DNA from: Epilithonimonas xixisoli | Lineage (GTDB): Bacteria > Bacteroidota > Bacteroidia > Flavobacteriales > Weeksellaceae | DNA length: 64,000 nt | Reading direction: 5' to 3' | NCBI RefSeq assembly: GCF_004365655.1 | Contig: NZ_SOEO01000001.1 | Span: 1,116,001-1,180,000, forward strand | Shown: positions 35,231 to 40,895 of the stretch, piece after piece | How positions within the stretch are numbered: the first letter of the stretch is position 1 | Layout: every line of letters starts with the position of its first letter | Notes under the pieces: generated by a model | Databases searched by the model: none | Told to the model about the DNA's origin: nothing | What the model saw: the letters and a program-made list of their open reading frames with translations, nothing else | Position numbers and translations under genes: made by a program

Positions 35231-35491
35231 TTAGAAATTAAATAAACCTAAAAAGCCTTTTGAAGACTCGATTTTCAAAAGGTTATTTTTTTGTAAATCT
35301 TCTACAAAATCATTTTCGTCTCTGTACCTGATTTGCATCTTCTCAAATGTCGATTTTCGATAAGCATAACCTTCCATAAAATCTTCGTTACTTTCCCAAT
35401 TTTGCAAATCCATCTTTCGCATCCAACGGATAAAATCTGAATTAGAATCAGTCTGTAAGCTTTTGTTACGTTTTAGGAGAATATATTTCAT
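35231..35491 (-). CDS. Small hypothetical protein (86 residues)
   Basis: The protein starts MKYILLKRNKSLQTDSN, is highly charged and contains two tryptophans (FIRWMRKMDLQNWESNED) and a helical C-terminal half (DENDFVEDLQKNNLLKIE). There is no signal peptide or membrane segment, so it is probably cytosolic. Its stop codon abuts the end of the E1 gene, and its last codons overlap that gene's terminator hairpin. I do not recognise the family. Confidence 0.55.
   Translation of the reverse strand: MKYILLKRNKSLQTDSNSDFIRWMRKMDLQNWESNEDFMEGYAYRKSTFEKMQIRYRDENDFVEDLQKNNLLKIESSKGFLGLFNF
35250..35292 (+). terminator. Terminator after the E1 gene, inside the convergent small gene
   Basis: CCTTTTGAA (35256-35264) pairs with TTCAAAAGG (35274-35282) and a T-rich tract follows on the plus strand. 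The hairpin lies within the 3' coding part of the convergent 86-residue gene. Confidence 0.65.
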
Positions 35492-35854
35492 TAGTTTTTT
35501 TATGTAAATTTATTAATAAAAAGCGATTATTATTATTAATTTTAAATTAATTTTATGCGAATATCTGCATTGTTTATAACGATTGAATCGTAGAATCACC
35601 AAGTGTAATTGTGATTTTAAATAAAGGAATATTGGAATAATTGTTTTTAAGTATTATTAAACCAATCAAAAAATTATTGACAAGTAAATTTTTAACTATT
35701 AGATGAATTTATTCCATCATTTTGAAATCTAATTTTCAATAATTTTTGAAAGTTTAGAAAATTTAATTATATTTGTACAAAAATTAAAAGCATTACAAAA
35801 ATGAAACGTTGAAAAACGTTATTTTTGATAATATAAAAACAATAGAAATTACAA
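35492..35854. other. AT-rich intergenic region with one promoter
   Basis: This region of about 360 bases between divergent genes shows no ORF, repeat or RNA structure except the promoter of the GbsR-type gene at 35746-35775. Confidence 0.5.
35746..35775 (+). promoter_or_regulatory. Bacteroidota-type promoter of the GbsR-family gene
   Basis: TTG (35746-35748), 19 bases, then TATATTTG (35768-35775) give a full -33/-7 pair, 80 bases before the ATG. Confidence 0.68.
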
Positions 35855-36355
35855 ATGAAACTCGACGAAGCCAAAGAAAAATACATTCAAACTTGGGGAA
35901 CTTTTGCCACCAATTGGGGAATCAACCGAACAATGGCGCAGGTTCATGCTTTGCTTTTGGCAGAAGGAAAACCTTTGTCAACAGATGAAGTGATGGAGCT
36001 TTTGCAAATCTCGAGAGGCAACGCGAATATGAACCTTAGGGCTTTGATGGATTGGGGAATTGTGAAAAAAGAATTTGTGAAAGGGGATAGGAAAGAATAT
36101 TTCATTGCTGAAAAAGATGTTTGGTTTCTCTTCAAACAAATCACGAAAGAACGCAGAAAACGTGAAATAGAACCGGTTGTAGCATTCTTGGAAGAGCTTA
36201 AAAATGTAGACGATGATTCTGAAGAAGCAAAAGAATTCATCAAATTAATGGATGATTTTGGAAACGTGACCAACAAAATCAATAACATAATGGACTTAGC
36301 CATCAAAAGCGATGACCATTGGCTGGTTGGGAAGATTACCAACTTACTGAAATAG
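35855..36355 (+). CDS. GbsR/MarR-family transcriptional regulator
   Basis: The 166-residue protein has a winged helix-turn-helix at about 20-90. Its recognition part is LSTDEVMELLQISRGNANMNLRALMDWGIVKK (in outline: STDEVMELLQISRGN, then LMDWGIVKKEF), followed by the wing KGDRKEYFIAE. A helical C-terminal dimerisation tail carries an acidic stretch, KNVDDDSEEAKEF. The GbsR group regulates osmolyte and membrane genes in other bacteria; the ligand here is unknown. It is the first gene of a plus-strand run that includes two 4-TM proteins, two micro-ORFs and an SRPBCC protein. Those genes are its likely targets or partners. Confidence 0.85.
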   Translation: MKLDEAKEKYIQTWGTFATNWGINRTMAQVHALLLAEGKPLSTDEVMELLQISRGNANMNLRALMDWGIVKKEFVKGDRKEYFIAEKDVWFLFKQITKERRKREIEPVVAFLEELKNVDDDSEEAKEFIKLMDDFGNVTNKINNIMDLAIKSDDHWLVGKITNLLK

Positions 36356-36378
36356 AAGGAAATTCATTTTCCTTTTTT
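36356..36378 (+). terminator. Weak hairpin after the GbsR-family gene
   Basis: AAGGAAA (36356-36362) can pair with TTTCCTT (36368-36374), followed by TTTTA. The stem is short, so termination is probably partial and some read-through into the following genes is expected. Confidence 0.4.
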
Positions 36379-36428
36379 ATTTCAGATTAAGTTTCAAAAA
36401 TTTCTGAAAATATAAAAATTACAATACT

Positions 36429-36848
36429 ATGAAAACTATTTTAAAATATGATTCTCAAATTCAAAGTTTCACGATTGCATTGTTTCTTCTGTCTTTTATT
36501 TTCATTAAATTTTTTAGTGATGATATTATTTCTAAATTAATAGTAGGCGAATTTTTCCTCATTGCCATTGTTCAATACACAAATAATTTGATTAAGTTTT
36601 TTTCTAAAGAATATATCAGAACCGATTCAAGATATGTATATATTTTTCTCTCAAGTTATGTGGTAATTGGTTTTATAATCTTGATATTATTATCAATTTT
36701 TGATATTGCCAAAGGAAATATTCCTCTTCGCCATTTTTTCGAATTACTTGTTATTTCTTGGATGATTCTTTCTCCAATACTTATTATTCAATCTCTATTA
36801 ATTAGTTATTCAGATAAAAATTTGAACAATGAAAAACCTAATATTTAA
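36429..36848 (+). CDS. 4-TM membrane protein of unknown function, copy 1
   Basis: This 139-residue protein has four hydrophobic segments: about 16-32 (FTIALFLLSFIFIKFF), 37-57, 70-90 (YIFLSSYVVIGFIILILL) and 105-125 (LLVISWMILSPILIIQSLLI). It ends NEKPNI. Topology and both ends (MKT...K start, EK-x-NI end) resemble the 136-residue protein at 36924, although overall identity looks low. The last 20 bases, including the stop codon, also encode the start of a 27-codon micro-ORF. No family is recognised. Confidence 0.65.
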   Translation: MKTILKYDSQIQSFTIALFLLSFIFIKFFSDDIISKLIVGEFFLIAIVQYTNNLIKFFSKEYIRTDSRYVYIFLSSYVVIGFIILILLSIFDIAKGNIPLRHFFELLVISWMILSPILIIQSLLISYSDKNLNNEKPNI

Positions 36849-36912
36849 AATCATAATGTTCTTCCTTTTCAGAACAAACCGAAGAACAAAAGGCGACTTT
36901 CTCAATCTTTAA
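36829..36912 (+). CDS. 27-codon micro-ORF, copy 1
   Basis: ATG at 36829 overlaps the last 20 bases of the 4-TM gene in another frame. The frame reads MKNLIFKIIMFFLFRTNRR and ends GDFLNL at TAA 36910-36912, 12 bases before the next gene. A hydrophobic N-terminal half is followed by a basic stretch. A second copy at 37315 has 24 of 27 identical residues. Five of its eight differing codons are synonymous. The repeated overlap with a host stop codon and the short spacing to the next ATG argue for a real small protein, probably membrane-associated. Confidence 0.55.
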   Translation: MKNLIFKIIMFFLFRTNRRTKGDFLNL

Positions 36913-36923
36913 AATCAAACACA

Positions 36924-37334
36924 ATGAAAACGTTTTTTAAAATAGATTTTTATGCTCAATTATTAATATTTTTTGGAATGATTAGTTATTTGATTTTTGA
37001 ATATATAACTACACATTTTGTAAGAAACCTTTTCTACTTCTATTATATCGTTGGAGGATTTCAGATTTTAAGTTTTTTTATAAGAGCATTTCTCAATTAT
37101 AAAAAGTCAAAATCATACAAGTTTTATGGAATTCTTTTGATTCCTATCTGGATAACATTCATTCTTTCTATGTTTTTACAAGGTAAAAATATAGACTTAG
37201 GTATCTTCAATCAATTGGGAATAATATTTTATCTAATGCTTTATAGTGCATTCTTTTATGCTCCAATTTTGTCCTTGATTTACATATTTGATATAAAGAA
37301 AACATTAGAAAAATATGAAAAATCTAATATTTAA
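36924..37334 (+). CDS. 4-TM membrane protein of unknown function, copy 2
   Basis: The 136-residue protein starts MKTFFKIDFYAQLLIFFGM and has four hydrophobic segments: about 11-30, 36-54 (LFYFYYIVGGFQILSFFI), 67-84 (YGILLIPIWITFILSMFL) and 97-120 (GIIFYLMLYSAFFYAPILSLIYIF). It ends KYEKSNI, like copy 1's NEKPNI. It is a diverged relative of the protein at 36429. Its stop codon is overlapped by the second micro-ORF in the same way as in copy 1. Function unknown. Confidence 0.65.
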   Translation: MKTFFKIDFYAQLLIFFGMISYLIFEYITTHFVRNLFYFYYIVGGFQILSFFIRAFLNYKKSKSYKFYGILLIPIWITFILSMFLQGKNIDLGIFNQLGIIFYLMLYSAFFYAPILSLIYIFDIKKTLEKYEKSNI

Positions 37335-37398
37335 AATCATATTGACTTTTCTTTTCAGAACTAATAAAAGAACAAAAGGCGACTTTCTCAACCTTTAA
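37315..37398 (+). CDS. 27-codon micro-ORF, copy 2
   Basis: ATG at 37315 overlaps the last 20 bases of the preceding 4-TM gene, exactly as in copy 1. The frame reads MKNLIFKIILTFLFRTNKR and ends GDFLNL at TAA 37396-37398, 10 bases before the SRPBCC gene. It differs from copy 1 only at residues 10, 11 and 18 (M/L, F/T, R/K). About 73 of 84 bases are identical, far more than in the host genes. Confidence 0.55.
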   Translation: MKNLIFKIILTFLFRTNKRTKGDFLNL

Positions 37399-37408
37399 AA
37401 TCAGAAAA

Positions 37409-37873
37409 ATGATGACTAAAATTTATCTAGAAACATTGATTGATGCAAACATTCAAACGGTTTTCGACCTATCCCGAAATATAGATTTTCACCAAAAGTC
37501 AACTTCTAAAACCAACGAAAAAGCAATTGCGGGAAAGACAAGCGGATTGATAGAGTTAGGCGAAACGGTAACTTGGCGAGCCAAACATTTGGGATTTTAT
37601 CAAACGCTCACAACGAAAATCATTGAAATGGAAAGTCCGAAAATGTTCACCGATGTAATGATACAAGGCGCTTTCAAATCGATGAAACATCAACATATTT
37701 TCAAAGAAAAAGAAGGAAAAACTTTGATGATTGATATTTTCGAATTTGAATCGCCTCTTGGAATTATCGGAAAAATAGTCAATCAAATCTTTCTGAAAAA
37801 TTATCTCAAAAAATTTATACTCGAGAGAAAACGAATGATAAAAGAAATTGCTGAATCACCTATTAATAATTAA
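37409..37873 (+). CDS. SRPBCC-family (START-like) ligand-binding protein
   Basis: The 154-residue protein has the helix-grip pattern. An initial strand (IYLETLIDANIQTVFDLSRNIDFHQKST, shown in outline) is followed by GLIELGETVTWRAKHLGFYQTLTTKI and the long C-terminal helix FLKNYLKKFILERKRMIKEIAES. SRPBCC proteins bind hydrophobic ligands in a deep pocket; the ligand is unknown. It starts MMTK, so either Met could be used. It lies 10 bases after micro-ORF copy 2 and completes the plus-strand run that starts with the GbsR-type gene. Confidence 0.75.
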   Translation: MMTKIYLETLIDANIQTVFDLSRNIDFHQKSTSKTNEKAIAGKTSGLIELGETVTWRAKHLGFYQTLTTKIIEMESPKMFTDVMIQGAFKSMKHQHIFKEKEGKTLMIDIFEFESPLGIIGKIVNQIFLKNYLKKFILERKRMIKEIAESPINN

Positions 37874-37959: not shown

Positions 37960-38484
37960 ATGGAACACGAATTATACATAAGATGCAAAAATAAAGATCG
38001 CAACGCACAGCGGAAACTTTATGAAGAATACGCAGGCCGATTCTTCGCAACCTGCAAACGTTACCTGAAAAACGACAAAGATGCGGAAGAAGTTTTGGCA
38101 GATTCTTTCTACCTGATTTTCACAAAACTGGAGCAACTCAAAGAACTTCAGGTCTTCGATGCTTGGGCAAAGAAAATTGTGGTGAATCAATGTCTTCAGA
38201 AACTTCGTAAGAAACAGCCATTTTCGATTTCGATTGAAGAGAATTTTGTGGATTTGGCAGAAGCTGAGCCCGAGAATGTTTCCGAGGAAAGAGGAATTTT
38301 ATCTCTTCTCAATTTCCTTCCGGAAGGTTGTCGCACGATTTTCAATCTGTTTGCGATGGAAGGTTATCCGCACAAGGAAATTGCACAAATGCTTTCTATT
38401 TCGGAAGGCACGTCCAAATCTCAGGTGAATTTCGCCCGCAAAAAATTGCAGGAACTGGTGAGACTTCAAACAATTAATTCTTAA
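37960..38484 (+). CDS. ECF RNA polymerase sigma factor
   Basis: The 174-residue protein has sigma region 2 at about 10-75 (RKLYEEYAGRFFATCKRYLKNDKDAEEVLADSFYLIFTKL, in outline from RKLYEEY to YLIFTKL). Region 4 at about 115-165 includes LPEGCRTIFNLFAMEGYPHKEIAQMLSISEGTSKSQ (in outline). The stop is only 11 bases from the next gene, which encodes a single-TM protein in the anti-sigma position. By analogy with other Bacteroidota sigma/anti-sigma pairs, that protein's N-terminus should restrain this factor. No TAnnTTTG box is seen upstream. Confidence 0.88.
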   Translation: MEHELYIRCKNKDRNAQRKLYEEYAGRFFATCKRYLKNDKDAEEVLADSFYLIFTKLEQLKELQVFDAWAKKIVVNQCLQKLRKKQPFSISIEENFVDLAEAEPENVSEERGILSLLNFLPEGCRTIFNLFAMEGYPHKEIAQMLSISEGTSKSQVNFARKKLQELVRLQTINS

Positions 38485-38495
38485 AGTTTAAAAAA

Positions 38496-40895
38496 ATGGA
38501 AAATCAAGATATCGATAAAATGTTCAGCGAAGCCGGAAAATCGGCGGAAGAAAAACCGACTTTCCCAAATTTCGAAAAAGTATGGCAAAACGTTGAAGAG
38601 AAATTAGATAAAAAAGAAGAAAAGAAAAGAATCATTCCACTTTGGTTGCCTTACGGAATGGTTGCTGGATTGGCTTTAACGTTTGGAGTTTTATATTTTG
38701 TGAATGATAAAGACACGAAAATAGAACCTCAAATCACATCAAACGATTACGGAAAACCAATCAATCCAAATCAAACAGAAACGCCAAAAAAAGTTGAGGA
38801 AATCAATAAAGCTTTTCAAGAGAATTTGGCGAAAAGTCCAGTCAAACCAGCTGAAGGAAAAGATATTATGGCTTATCAGAAAACTCCAAGTGCGATTGTT
38901 GCTCCACCAATGATTTACCATAATTCTTCTCCTGTGGCAGATGCAATTGCTCCAACAGTTCAGTACGAAATAAAAGCTGAAACAAATTCTTTAGCTGATG
39001 AGAAAAGAATTAGAGTTGAACAAGAAATGAGAAATAATATTGCTTCTCAGCAAAGACAGAAAGATATTGAAAGTTTTGTGGTTGTTGGCTATTCAACAGC
39101 AAAAAAGAAAGATAAGATAAGTTCTGTTAATCAAATTGAGAATCGTTCTAATTCAAGTTTTCTAAATGCAATACAAGGAAATGTTGCTGGTGTTCAAATC
39201 GCAACAGGGAAAGCAATTCCTGGAAGTTCTCCTAATATTAAAATCCGAGGAACAGCTTCATTAACTTCAAACAATCAACCATTATATGTGATTGATGGAA
39301 TTCCTTACGAGAAAGCAAGTTTGGCCAATATTGACCCAAATAAAATTAAAGATGTTCAGGTTTTAAAAGACCTTTCTGCAACTTCACTTTACGGAACTAG
39401 AGGCGCAAATGGAGTAGTTGTAATCAAAACTAAAGGTTTGTCCAAAAAGGAAATTGATTTGCTTAATAACCCAAAACCTATTCAAAATCAAGAATCTTAC
39501 GACGAGTGGAAAGAAAATAAATTCGAGTTGGCAAAGGCAGAACCACTTTCTACTTTCTCAATTGATGTGGACAAAGCATCATATTCCAACGTGAGAAGAA
39601 TGATAAACAATGGCGAATCTGTGGACAAAAACGCTGTGAGAATCGAGGAAATGATTAATTATTTTAATTACAATTATCCTCAACCAAAGAACAATCAGCC
39701 TTTTTCCATCAATACAGAATACAACGATTCGCCTTGGAATCCAAAACACAAACTTCTGAAAATCGGGTTACAAGGTAAAATTCTGAATGAAAAAGAATTA
39801 CCGGCTTCCAATTTGGTTTTCTTAATCGATGTTTCAGGTTCAATGAATCAGCAAAATAAATTGCCTTTGTTGAAAACTTCATTCAAGATTTTATTAGAAA
39901 AACTTCGTCCACAAGATAAAGTGGCGCTCGTAACTTATGCCGGAAGTGCAGGCGTTGTTTTGGAACCGACTTCTGCAAAGAACAAAGAAAAAATTCTTTC
40001 AGCTTTAGAAAATCTTAGTGCTGGCGGAAGTACAGCTGGAGGACAAGGAATTGAATTAGCTTATAAATTGGCTCAGGAAAATTTGGTCAAAAACGGAAAT
40101 AATCGTGTGATTCTGGCAACTGATGGCGATTTTAATGTTGGAGTTTCCGATAATTCCGAACTTCAAAAATTAATTGAACAAAAAAGACAATCTGGAATTT
40201 TCTTGACTTGCCTAGGTTTCGGAATGGGAAATTACAAAGACAATCGTTTGGAAATGTTGGCTGACAAAGGCAATGGAAATTATGCTTACATCGATAATAT
40301 GCAGGAATCTAACAAGTTTCTTGGAAAAGAATTTGCTGGAAGTATGTATGCGATTGCGAAAGATGTAAAGATTCAAATTGAGTTTAATCCGAAGTTCGTA
40401 AAATCCTATCGATTAATTGGTTATGAAAATAGAAAATTAAGAAATGAAGATTTTAAAAATGATAAAATTGATGCGGGAGAACTAGGAATTGGTCATACGG
40501 TGACAGCGATTTATGAAATCATTCCAACTGGTTCAGACTCAGAATTTGCACCTCAAGATATTGATTTGAAGTATTCTAAAAATGAATCTCAAAATGAATT
40601 TGGAGACGAATTAGCAACAGTTAAATTCCGTTACAAAAATCCGGATGAAGATGTAAGCAAAGAATTAATTCAGACTGTAAAAGATTCTAAAAATCAATTG
40701 AATAGCGCTTCGTCAGATTTCAAATTTTCATCGTCTGTCGCTTGGTTTGGATTGGTTTTAAGACAATCGGAATTCATCAAAGATAAAGACCTTGATAAAA
40801 TCATCAATCTTGCAAAACAGGGAAAAGCAAACGATGAAGATGGTTATCGTTCAGAATTTATCAGACTGATTGAAAGTTACAAGCAGATAAAGTAA
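38496..40895 (+). CDS. Chimeric protein: cytoplasmic anti-sigma-like tail, TM helix, TonB-plug domain and YfbK-type vWA domain
   Basis: The 799-residue protein has a charged cytoplasmic N-terminus (1-46) and one TM helix (about 47-69). A disordered stretch follows, then a SusC-like plug at about 195-318 (FVVVGYSTAKKKDK, GNVAGVQIATGKAIPGSS, PLYVIDGIPYE, LKDLSATSLYGTRGANGVVVIKTKG). No beta-barrel follows. Instead the YfbK/DUF3520 arrangement appears: PLSTFSIDVDKASYSNVRRM and EEMINYFNYNYPQP near 350-400, the vWA MIDAS motif DVSGS near 445-449, ATDGDFNVG near 545, and a C-terminal YfbK domain to 799. Position directly behind a sigma gene suggests an anti-sigma or sensor role (inference). Confidence 0.82.
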   Translation: MENQDIDKMFSEAGKSAEEKPTFPNFEKVWQNVEEKLDKKEEKKRIIPLWLPYGMVAGLALTFGVLYFVNDKDTKIEPQITSNDYGKPINPNQTETPKKVEEINKAFQENLAKSPVKPAEGKDIMAYQKTPSAIVAPPMIYHNSSPVADAIAPTVQYEIKAETNSLADEKRIRVEQEMRNNIASQQRQKDIESFVVVGYSTAKKKDKISSVNQIENRSNSSFLNAIQGNVAGVQIATGKAIPGSSPNIKIRGTASLTSNNQPLYVIDGIPYEKASLANIDPNKIKDVQVLKDLSATSLYGTRGANGVVVIKTKGLSKKEIDLLNNPKPIQNQESYDEWKENKFELAKAEPLSTFSIDVDKASYSNVRRMINNGESVDKNAVRIEEMINYFNYNYPQPKNNQPFSINTEYNDSPWNPKHKLLKIGLQGKILNEKELPASNLVFLIDVSGSMNQQNKLPLLKTSFKILLEKLRPQDKVALVTYAGSAGVVLEPTSAKNKEKILSALENLSAGGSTAGGQGIELAYKLAQENLVKNGNNRVILATDGDFNVGVSDNSELQKLIEQKRQSGIFLTCLGFGMGNYKDNRLEMLADKGNGNYAYIDNMQESNKFLGKEFAGSMYAIAKDVKIQIEFNPKFVKSYRLIGYENRKLRNEDFKNDKIDAGELGIGHTVTAIYEIIPTGSDSEFAPQDIDLKYSKNESQNEFGDELATVKFRYKNPDEDVSKELIQTVKDSKNQLNSASSDFKFSSSVAWFGLVLRQSEFIKDKDLDKIINLAKQGKANDEDGYRSEFIRLIESYKQIK

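Follow-up and report, generated by a model that had tools for sequence, protein, structure and literature searches.

A candidate microprotein gene in a GbsR-linked membrane-gene cluster of Chryseobacterium and Epilithonimonas

CydX, CydY, and CydZ are small subunits encoded in cytochrome bd operons. CydX is 37 aa long, is often left unannotated, and is thought to have arisen in one lineage; related operons without it have other small proteins (PMC4325964). Some cyd operons adjoin a gene for a GbsR-type regulator (CydE), and a survey of GbsR proteins reports no consistent gene neighbourhood for the Bacteroidetes members and leaves their role unassigned (PMC6207618). In Bacillus subtilis, GbsR is described as acting by a road-block mode of repression (PMC7396694).

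The DNA analysed here (the window) is a 64,000-nucleotide stretch of the 3.39-Mb genome of Epilithonimonas xixisoli. It contains a run of genes that begins, as an earlier note on this DNA had stated, with a GbsR-like regulator, and in which each of two membrane-protein genes (the ‘hosts’) is overlapped at its 3′ end by a micro-ORF. The ORF coordinates and lengths of the hosts (139 and 136 aa) and micro-ORFs (27 aa each) given in that note were reproduced, as were the 20-base overlap at both copies and the spacing from micro-ORF to next gene (11 and 10 bases; 10–12 had been claimed). The order is palindrome 1, gbsR, hairpin, palindrome 2, host A, micro-ORF 1, host B, micro-ORF 2, and SRPBCC-like gene:

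35734–35751, no strand assigned: palindrome TTTCAATAATTTTTGAAA, predicted GbsR operator 1, 5′ of gbsR, conserved
35768–35775, plus strand: TATATTTG, predicted −7 type element of the gbsR promoter, of the kind described in PMC6847099
35855–36355, plus strand: gene for a gbsR-like regulator, 166 aa, with matches to CudC (NCBIfam) and MarR_2 below cut-off
36354–36380, plus strand: hairpin followed by a T-run, terminator-like, directly 3′ of gbsR (−7.9 kcal/mol, z = −2.78)
36392–36409, no strand assigned: palindrome TTTCAAAAATTTCTGAAA, predicted GbsR operator 2, situated after gbsR and before the operon, conserved
36429–36848, plus strand: gene for host A, a membrane protein of TM2 family A with 139 aa, from ORF and hydropathy
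36829–36912, plus strand: microprotein gene copy 1, type 1, 27 aa, predicted from ORF, conservation, and pN/pS
36924–37334, plus strand: gene for host B, a membrane protein of TM2 family B with 136 aa, distantly homologous to host A
37315–37398, plus strand: microprotein gene copy 2, type 1, 27 aa, predicted from ORF and conservation
37409–37873, plus strand: gene for an SRPBCC-like protein, 154 aa, final gene of the run, Polyketide_cyc2 match below cut-off

The earlier description of the last gene as encoding an SRPBCC protein is right as to likeness, but the label comes from a sub-threshold match: the product scores 16.2 bits (E = 0.013) against Polyketide_cyc2 (Pfam), short of the gathering score of 27.4, and a relative (L037, 6098–6562) reaches 25.5 bits against the same cut-off. 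Beyond the run, window positions 38496–40895 encode a 799-aa protein with TonB-receptor Plug, vWF_A/VWA, and YfbK_C domains, an unusual-looking fusion whose N-terminus, judged by eye, has one likely membrane helix and is anti-sigma-like; its gene starts 11 bases behind that of an ECF sigma factor (37960–38484). On the minus strand, 35231–35491 holds an 86-aa ORF with a sub-threshold match to Imm27 (E = 0.0029, 17.9 against 27.3 bits), and in relatives a cluster of six similar-looking minus-strand ORFs lies upstream of gbsR.

The micro-ORF recurs well beyond the window. With a single micro-ORF as tblastn query, 14 of the 23 genomes of the genus were matched, as were 112 of the 320 genomes of the family (Weeksellaceae) at E ≤ 0.1, the weakest of these being doubtful; a scan of the genome collection gave 63 micro-ORF loci, from Epilithonimonas, Chryseobacterium, and a few other isolates and MAGs. 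The predicted products fall into two types. Type 1, to which both window copies belong, is 27–29 aa long and ends in KRTRGDFLNL. Type 2 is 17–25 aa long and consists of MKNLIIHLFLIFYF and a basic tail that is variable and can be almost absent (17 aa); it was recognised in 20 loci that have gbsR and gave no type 1 match (19 picked for that, plus one from genome G207), mostly in the same slot as type 1, before a TM2 or DUF393 gene. The types are homologous (hhalign probability 93.5, E = 2.4e-7, 19 columns), and sequences resembling intermediates between them occur, such as MKNLIIHLFLILYFGNSKRSFLNF from another genus.

That the micro-ORF is a real, selected small gene, with a hydrophobic-then-basic product as the earlier note proposed, is well supported in silico by intact frames, pN/pS below 1, and an initiation signature. 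Open frame, ATG, and stop are kept in all 63 loci of the scan, the ATG lying three to four codons ahead of the aligned part in two of them (L087 and L096). Substitutions were analysed in 87 unique type 1 DNA sequences, comprising 63 of Chryseobacterium type, 21 of a 27-aa MKN type (mostly Epilithonimonas), and 3 in neither group, and in 62 unique type 2 sequences. Amino-acid changes are fewer than silent ones, with a type 1 pN/pS of 0.242 (0.151 for the Chryseobacterium type and 0.329 for the MKN type) and a type 2 pN/pS of 0.111 (codons 2–14). The remaining two forward frames yield ratios of 0.97–1.85 for type 1 and 0.56 (frame +1) and 5.7 for type 2; one reverse-strand frame also falls below 1 (0.34, 0.51, and 0.21, the first two for type 1), which is expected where third positions line up.

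In Flavobacterium johnsoniae, A at −3 and at −12/−13 promotes initiation, and A at −6 is another determinant (PMC6847099). The micro-ORF starts bear part of this Flavobacterium initiation signature: A at −3 is found at 81% of overlapping type 1 starts (n = 43), 85% of non-overlapping ones (n = 20), and 89% of type 2 starts (n = 62), and A at −12 at 100%, 85%, and 71%, respectively (70%–100% for A−12/−13), in samples that are related by descent and hence not independent. Among 2143 control ATGs, out of frame in the same operons, A occurs at 37% (−3) and 35% (−12), or 37%, 35%, and 41% where −12/−13 is included. A at −6 is enriched at type 2 starts (94%) but not at type 1 starts (7% and 30%, against 35% in controls).

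Within the window, the two copies agree at 24 of 27 residues (counted by eye from the translations) and 73 of 84 bases, as had been reported. Recent gene conversion, which the earlier note offered as one explanation of this likeness, is unlikely: when type 1 genes of equal length are ranked by their DNA, copy 1 shares 80/84 bases with its nearest counterpart, that of E. hispanica, and 79/84 with that of E. caeni, against 73/84 with copy 2, and copy 2 is nearest to the gene of locus L042 (74/84). Divergence between the copies extends to 6.5 of the 16.2 synonymous sites. Host A with its micro-ORF occurs singly in L043 and L045, and host B with its micro-ORF in L040 and L042. Copy distances and single arrangements together suggest that the tandem is old or was assembled by recombination, and is no fresh duplication; two arrangements of membrane gene plus micro-ORF, each single in relatives, would now stand in tandem as two diverged copies.

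The hosts had been taken to share only topology and ends. Direct BLASTP of host A against host B gave no match (E = 1.7); at family level they prove to be distant homologues (hhalign probability 95.1, E = 3.3e-8, 120 columns). Different hosts have common C-terminal ends because the first 20 bases of the micro-ORF are read there in another frame. Of the four membrane segments assigned to each host, host A shows four in its hydropathy profile, but host B only three above threshold. Host A matches nothing in PADLOC, and nothing in Pfam or NCBIfam above cut-off. The exactness of the 20-base overlap, read earlier as a sign of coupling, is that of the first stop available in that frame: Phe6-Lys7 is encoded by TTTAAA, giving TAA in the frame that runs past the ATG and thus an overlap of 20, and the third frame stops at ATGA, giving an overlap of 4, in 2 of the 63 loci. 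Translational coupling may still occur. TTT at codon 6 (84 of 87 sequences) is not taken as a mark of dual coding, since it is equally common where the 20-base overlap is lacking (19 of 20 loci).

The much stronger conservation claimed for the micro-ORF relative to its host is borne out in the two host families of the window. In locus pairs that share the host-A family, identity averages 0.47 between the hosts and 0.81 between the microproteins (microprotein higher in 120/120); for the host-B family the means are 0.45 and 0.79 (higher in 250/250 sampled pairs). It does not extend to TM0b, the commonest overlapping gene elsewhere (0.84 against 0.80, microprotein higher in 88/250 pairs), or to GbsR (0.90 against 0.77, 28/250 pairs). 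Nor is the unit tied to a host with four membrane segments, as had been thought. The gene called 5′ of the micro-ORF in the 63 loci is TM0 in 40 (39 with an overlap of 20), gbsR in 11, TM2 in 6 (4 with an overlap of 20), TM16 in 2, DUF2071 in 2, and another in 2; one of the last two, L070, also has the micro-ORF after gbsR and is the twelfth such locus. An ORF is visible upstream of 58 type 2 genes, and in no case do the two overlap. A membrane-protein host is optional.

The wider operon is variable. In the 63 micro-bearing loci, simple ORF calling, on contigs some of which end early, detected TM0 in 40, TM2 in 44, SRPBCC in 47, SDR in 44, DUF2071 in 43, and DUF393 in 39; the sole constant operon gene is gbsR, which lies upstream of the micro-ORF on the same strand, 76–1932 bases away, in all 63. 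TM0 is a small membrane protein family without a model, usually occurring as a pair, one member of about 114 aa and the other of about 133 aa. Related operons encode DCC1-like/DUF393, DUF2071, TIGR01777, and SRPBCC-like genes, and a fatty-acid-desaturase-type gene occurs in 9 of the 63 loci; a lipid- or membrane-related module is plausible. Profile searches of the PDB were uninformative for TM0, TM2, and the microprotein alike (a single TrwH match, E = 0.34), and Rfam, PADLOC, PHROGs, and plasmid searches returned nothing relevant.

Across the family, gbsR is present in 203 of 320 genomes. Counting full-length type 1 matches at E ≤ 6.8e-5 and type 2 matches at E ≤ 2e-5, type 1 occurs in 106 genomes, type 2 in 90, and both in 4, so that 192 of the 203 gbsR-positive genomes carry a microprotein of either type and none of the 117 gbsR-negative ones does; these figures describe co-occurrence within genomes, gene neighbourhood having been read in the fetched loci. 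In two of the 11 gbsR-positive genomes without a microprotein (G057 and G172), gbsR lies at the end of a contig; the other nine come from genera g3, g11, g24, and g26. Most Chryseobacterium and Epilithonimonas genomes carry the microprotein in one regulator-linked membrane-gene cluster.

Certain matches were set aside. Apparent fusions, in which the type 1 profile (model positions 6–27, E 7e-5 to 1e-3) matched frames of 243–257 aa, came from seven genomes (G051, G091, G168, G128, G103, G175, and G207), all of which were omitted from the type 1 count; the four such loci that were fetched (L102–L105) have no operon gene alongside and were treated as chance. L106–L108 and L116 were likewise treated as chance matches. 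Order-wide searches with the type 1 profile (296 genomes) and the type 2 profile (148), some family genomes included, gave only partial, weak matches outside the family (the best being G550, E = 1.7e-4, and G392, E = 8.4e-4), and these were set aside. Over the 1.5 kb read in each of fourteen gbsR loci of other Flavobacteriales families (L207–L220), no microprotein could be recognised, but TM0-like genes are found in 9 of the loci; the same core operon without a recognisable microprotein occurs in other genera and families.

Two loci record decay. In G155 (C1:1032751–1033250), gbsR is in two pieces with internal stop codons, and the downstream type 2 ORF is intact. In L109, near 5591 (genome G201), a decayed second copy of the micro-ORF lies behind a TM2 gene, with its start lost and its tail readable; extra copies can therefore die while the main copy stays intact.

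The regulator gene product matches CudC (NCBIfam) with E = 1.1e-17 and 64.4 bits, without reaching the cut-off of 218, and MarR_2 with 26.4 bits against a cut-off of 27. Judged by these scores, the GbsR-like protein is a predicted CudC relative that falls outside the CudC equivalog. The palindrome TTTCAAWAATTWYTGAAA, searched as TTTCA-N7..9-TGAAA, lies within 200 bases 5′ of gbsR in 98/98 in-group loci (window included) and 18/19 outgroup loci, and 3′ of gbsR in 93/98 and 17/19, respectively. In the whole window genome, TTTCAAWAATTHYTGAAA occurs in two places only, window positions 35734 and 36392. Within the window alone the pair is unremarkable (0.92 expected; at least two in 24 of 100 shuffles), and its significance lies in its conservation, not in the window count.

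The element TANNTTTG follows operator 1 within 45 bases in 94/98 in-group loci (at offset 16 in 91 of the 94) and 15/18 outgroup loci, and a −7 element was found within 45 bases behind operator 2 in 0/93 and 0/17, respectively. Operator 1 overlaps a TTG 19 bases ahead of the −7 element, which we take to correspond to the TTG/−33 promoter rule. From these positions we infer a predicted pair of GbsR operators, one over the promoter and one acting as a road-block. Ahead of palindrome 2, a hairpin with T-run is found in 82/98 in-group loci and 1/19 outgroup loci, and thus goes with the lineage that has the microprotein, although no terminator was called in this region by a generic scan.

The microprotein is probably a lineage-specific, membrane-associated accessory component of this GbsR-controlled membrane operon, a role read from sequence features. 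It begins Met-Lys, continues with hydrophobic residues at positions 3–14, and ends in a basic tail, with a net charge of +4/+5 and a tail charge of +3 (six examples). This composition suggests membrane association, although 12 hydrophobic residues are short for a complete membrane span. GbsR would bind the palindrome over its own promoter and the second palindrome before the operon, there as a road-block. Upon its release, the microprotein would be made together with the small membrane proteins and with the lipid- or redox-type enzymes encoded further downstream; ribosomes ending on the upstream gene may aid translation of the micro-ORF, but would not be required for it. The microprotein would then insert into the inner membrane and there serve the membrane machinery that the operon encodes, either as a small accessory subunit or by modulating it, in the manner of CydX with cytochrome bd. 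That TM0, TM2, SRPBCC, SDR, DUF2071, and DUF393 each go undetected in some micro-bearing loci speaks against a single partner among the operon proteins.

Translation of the short ORF might instead matter for its own sake, with the ORF as a translational leader or coupler that controls the next gene downstream irrespective of its product. The close spacing is consistent with this, the next detected gene starting 4–21 bases past the micro-ORF stop in 56 of the 63 loci, as are the 11 loci in which the micro-ORF comes first behind gbsR and operator 2. The amino acids are, however, conserved while synonymous sites differ widely (pS 0.52–0.67), and the micro-ORF also stands behind TM0, TM2, TM16, or DUF2071 genes and so is not always first. 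The gene that it would control varies (TM2 in 38 loci, DUF393 in 16, SRPBCC in 8, another in 1), two different microproteins, types 1 and 2, follow one another 10 bases apart in L221 (2588–2756) and L222 (2641–2809) (genomes G141 and G186, two of the four with both types), and neither window copy folds better than shuffled RNA (z −0.39 and −0.44). A leader function is accordingly considered unlikely.

A direct tie to GbsR fits best with the co-occurrence. Under such a tie the microprotein could be the regulator's own peptide partner, binding GbsR and tethering it to the membrane, or sensing the inducer, in a feedback. It is gbsR alone that accompanies the microprotein in 63/63 loci and in all 192 bearing genomes, and the micro-ORF stands directly 3′ of it in the 11 loci noted above. 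The tie is weakened by GbsR proteins with the same palindromes, in operons of other genera and families, that have no recognisable microprotein, and a dedicated GbsR partner is held to be quite unlikely. A small hydrophobic toxin of type I-like kind, or a bacteriocin-like peptide with the four-TM proteins as its immunity, would account for a hydrophobic, cationic peptide of 17–29 aa beside small membrane proteins; purifying selection, near-constant presence with one regulator, the failure of the type 1 query to match any of 72,556 plasmid records, the lack of a PADLOC match, and the frequent non-detection of the four-TM neighbours make this very improbable. A non-coding repeat, or a C-terminal frameshift extension of the host, would suit the way the micro-ORF straddles the host end in another frame, the 88%-identical direct repeat (36829–36917 and 37315–37403) that encloses the window copies, and the decayed copy in L109, but can be given almost no weight against an ATG of its own where gbsR and no membrane gene precedes, selection specific to one frame, and the initiation signature at the starts.

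For the accessory microprotein favoured here, origin is a further matter. The gbsR tree shows about 20 changes of microprotein state, a count that is only indicative, as rows L221–L223 hold both types yet are labelled type 2; rows marked as having none include duplicates of microprotein-bearing loci (L005, L120, L178, and L225), and support for the tree is weak (33 of the 116 inner branches starred). One scenario, advanced tentatively and thought unlikely as a whole, is that the family was born in an ancestor of the Chryseobacterium group within an older, order-wide GbsR–TM0 operon and split into two types that replace each other in the slot, the product being an exchangeable membrane peptide with which the operon under GbsR control is tuned, perhaps through binding to GbsR. 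Because the microprotein seems confined to one lineage, and its operon occurs elsewhere without it, it is a candidate case for the study of how microprotein genes are born in bacteria. The gene is tiny (down to 17 codons) and sharply defined, with very strong evidence of co-occurrence and selection, and its product probably has a specific job in the regulator-linked membrane-gene cluster. Small proteins are little charted in the phylum, as far as literature searches show.

A literature search returned nothing on the microprotein or the operon, which is no proof of their being unpublished, and one paper on small membrane proteins does not mention the genera Chryseobacterium or Epilithonimonas. 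The family seems to be undescribed, and small operon-encoded membrane-type proteins are, as a kind, already known. CydX is similar in being a tiny protein of a membrane-gene operon; the present microprotein is smaller (17–29 aa), has no Pfam or NCBIfam model (the window copies also match none in PADLOC or PHROG), and is accompanied by no cytochrome bd family (cydA/cydB) among the operon proteins scanned. With the GbsR/OpcR/CudC regulators of glycine betaine genes, the regulator shares a MarR-like character; its predicted operators would, like theirs, be A/T-rich inverted repeats, and the one behind the promoter would fit a road-block (PMC7396694, PMC6207618), but no betaine-synthesis or Opu transporter gene occurs among the operon proteins scanned, a further palindrome lies over the regulator's own promoter, and the half-sites, as far as they are comparable, are arranged as TTTCA-N8-TGAAA rather than 4 bp apart as described in B. 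subtilis (PMC7396694). The Bacteroidetes GbsR homologues belong to the same regulator family and phylum (PMC6207618). In contrast to the survey of these homologues, a recurring neighbourhood is found here, in which gbsR is accompanied by differing selections from a TM0 pair and DUF393, SRPBCC-like, DUF2071, and TIGR01777 genes, and which offers, for homologues of unassigned role, a concrete regulatory unit of regulator, candidate operators, and operon.
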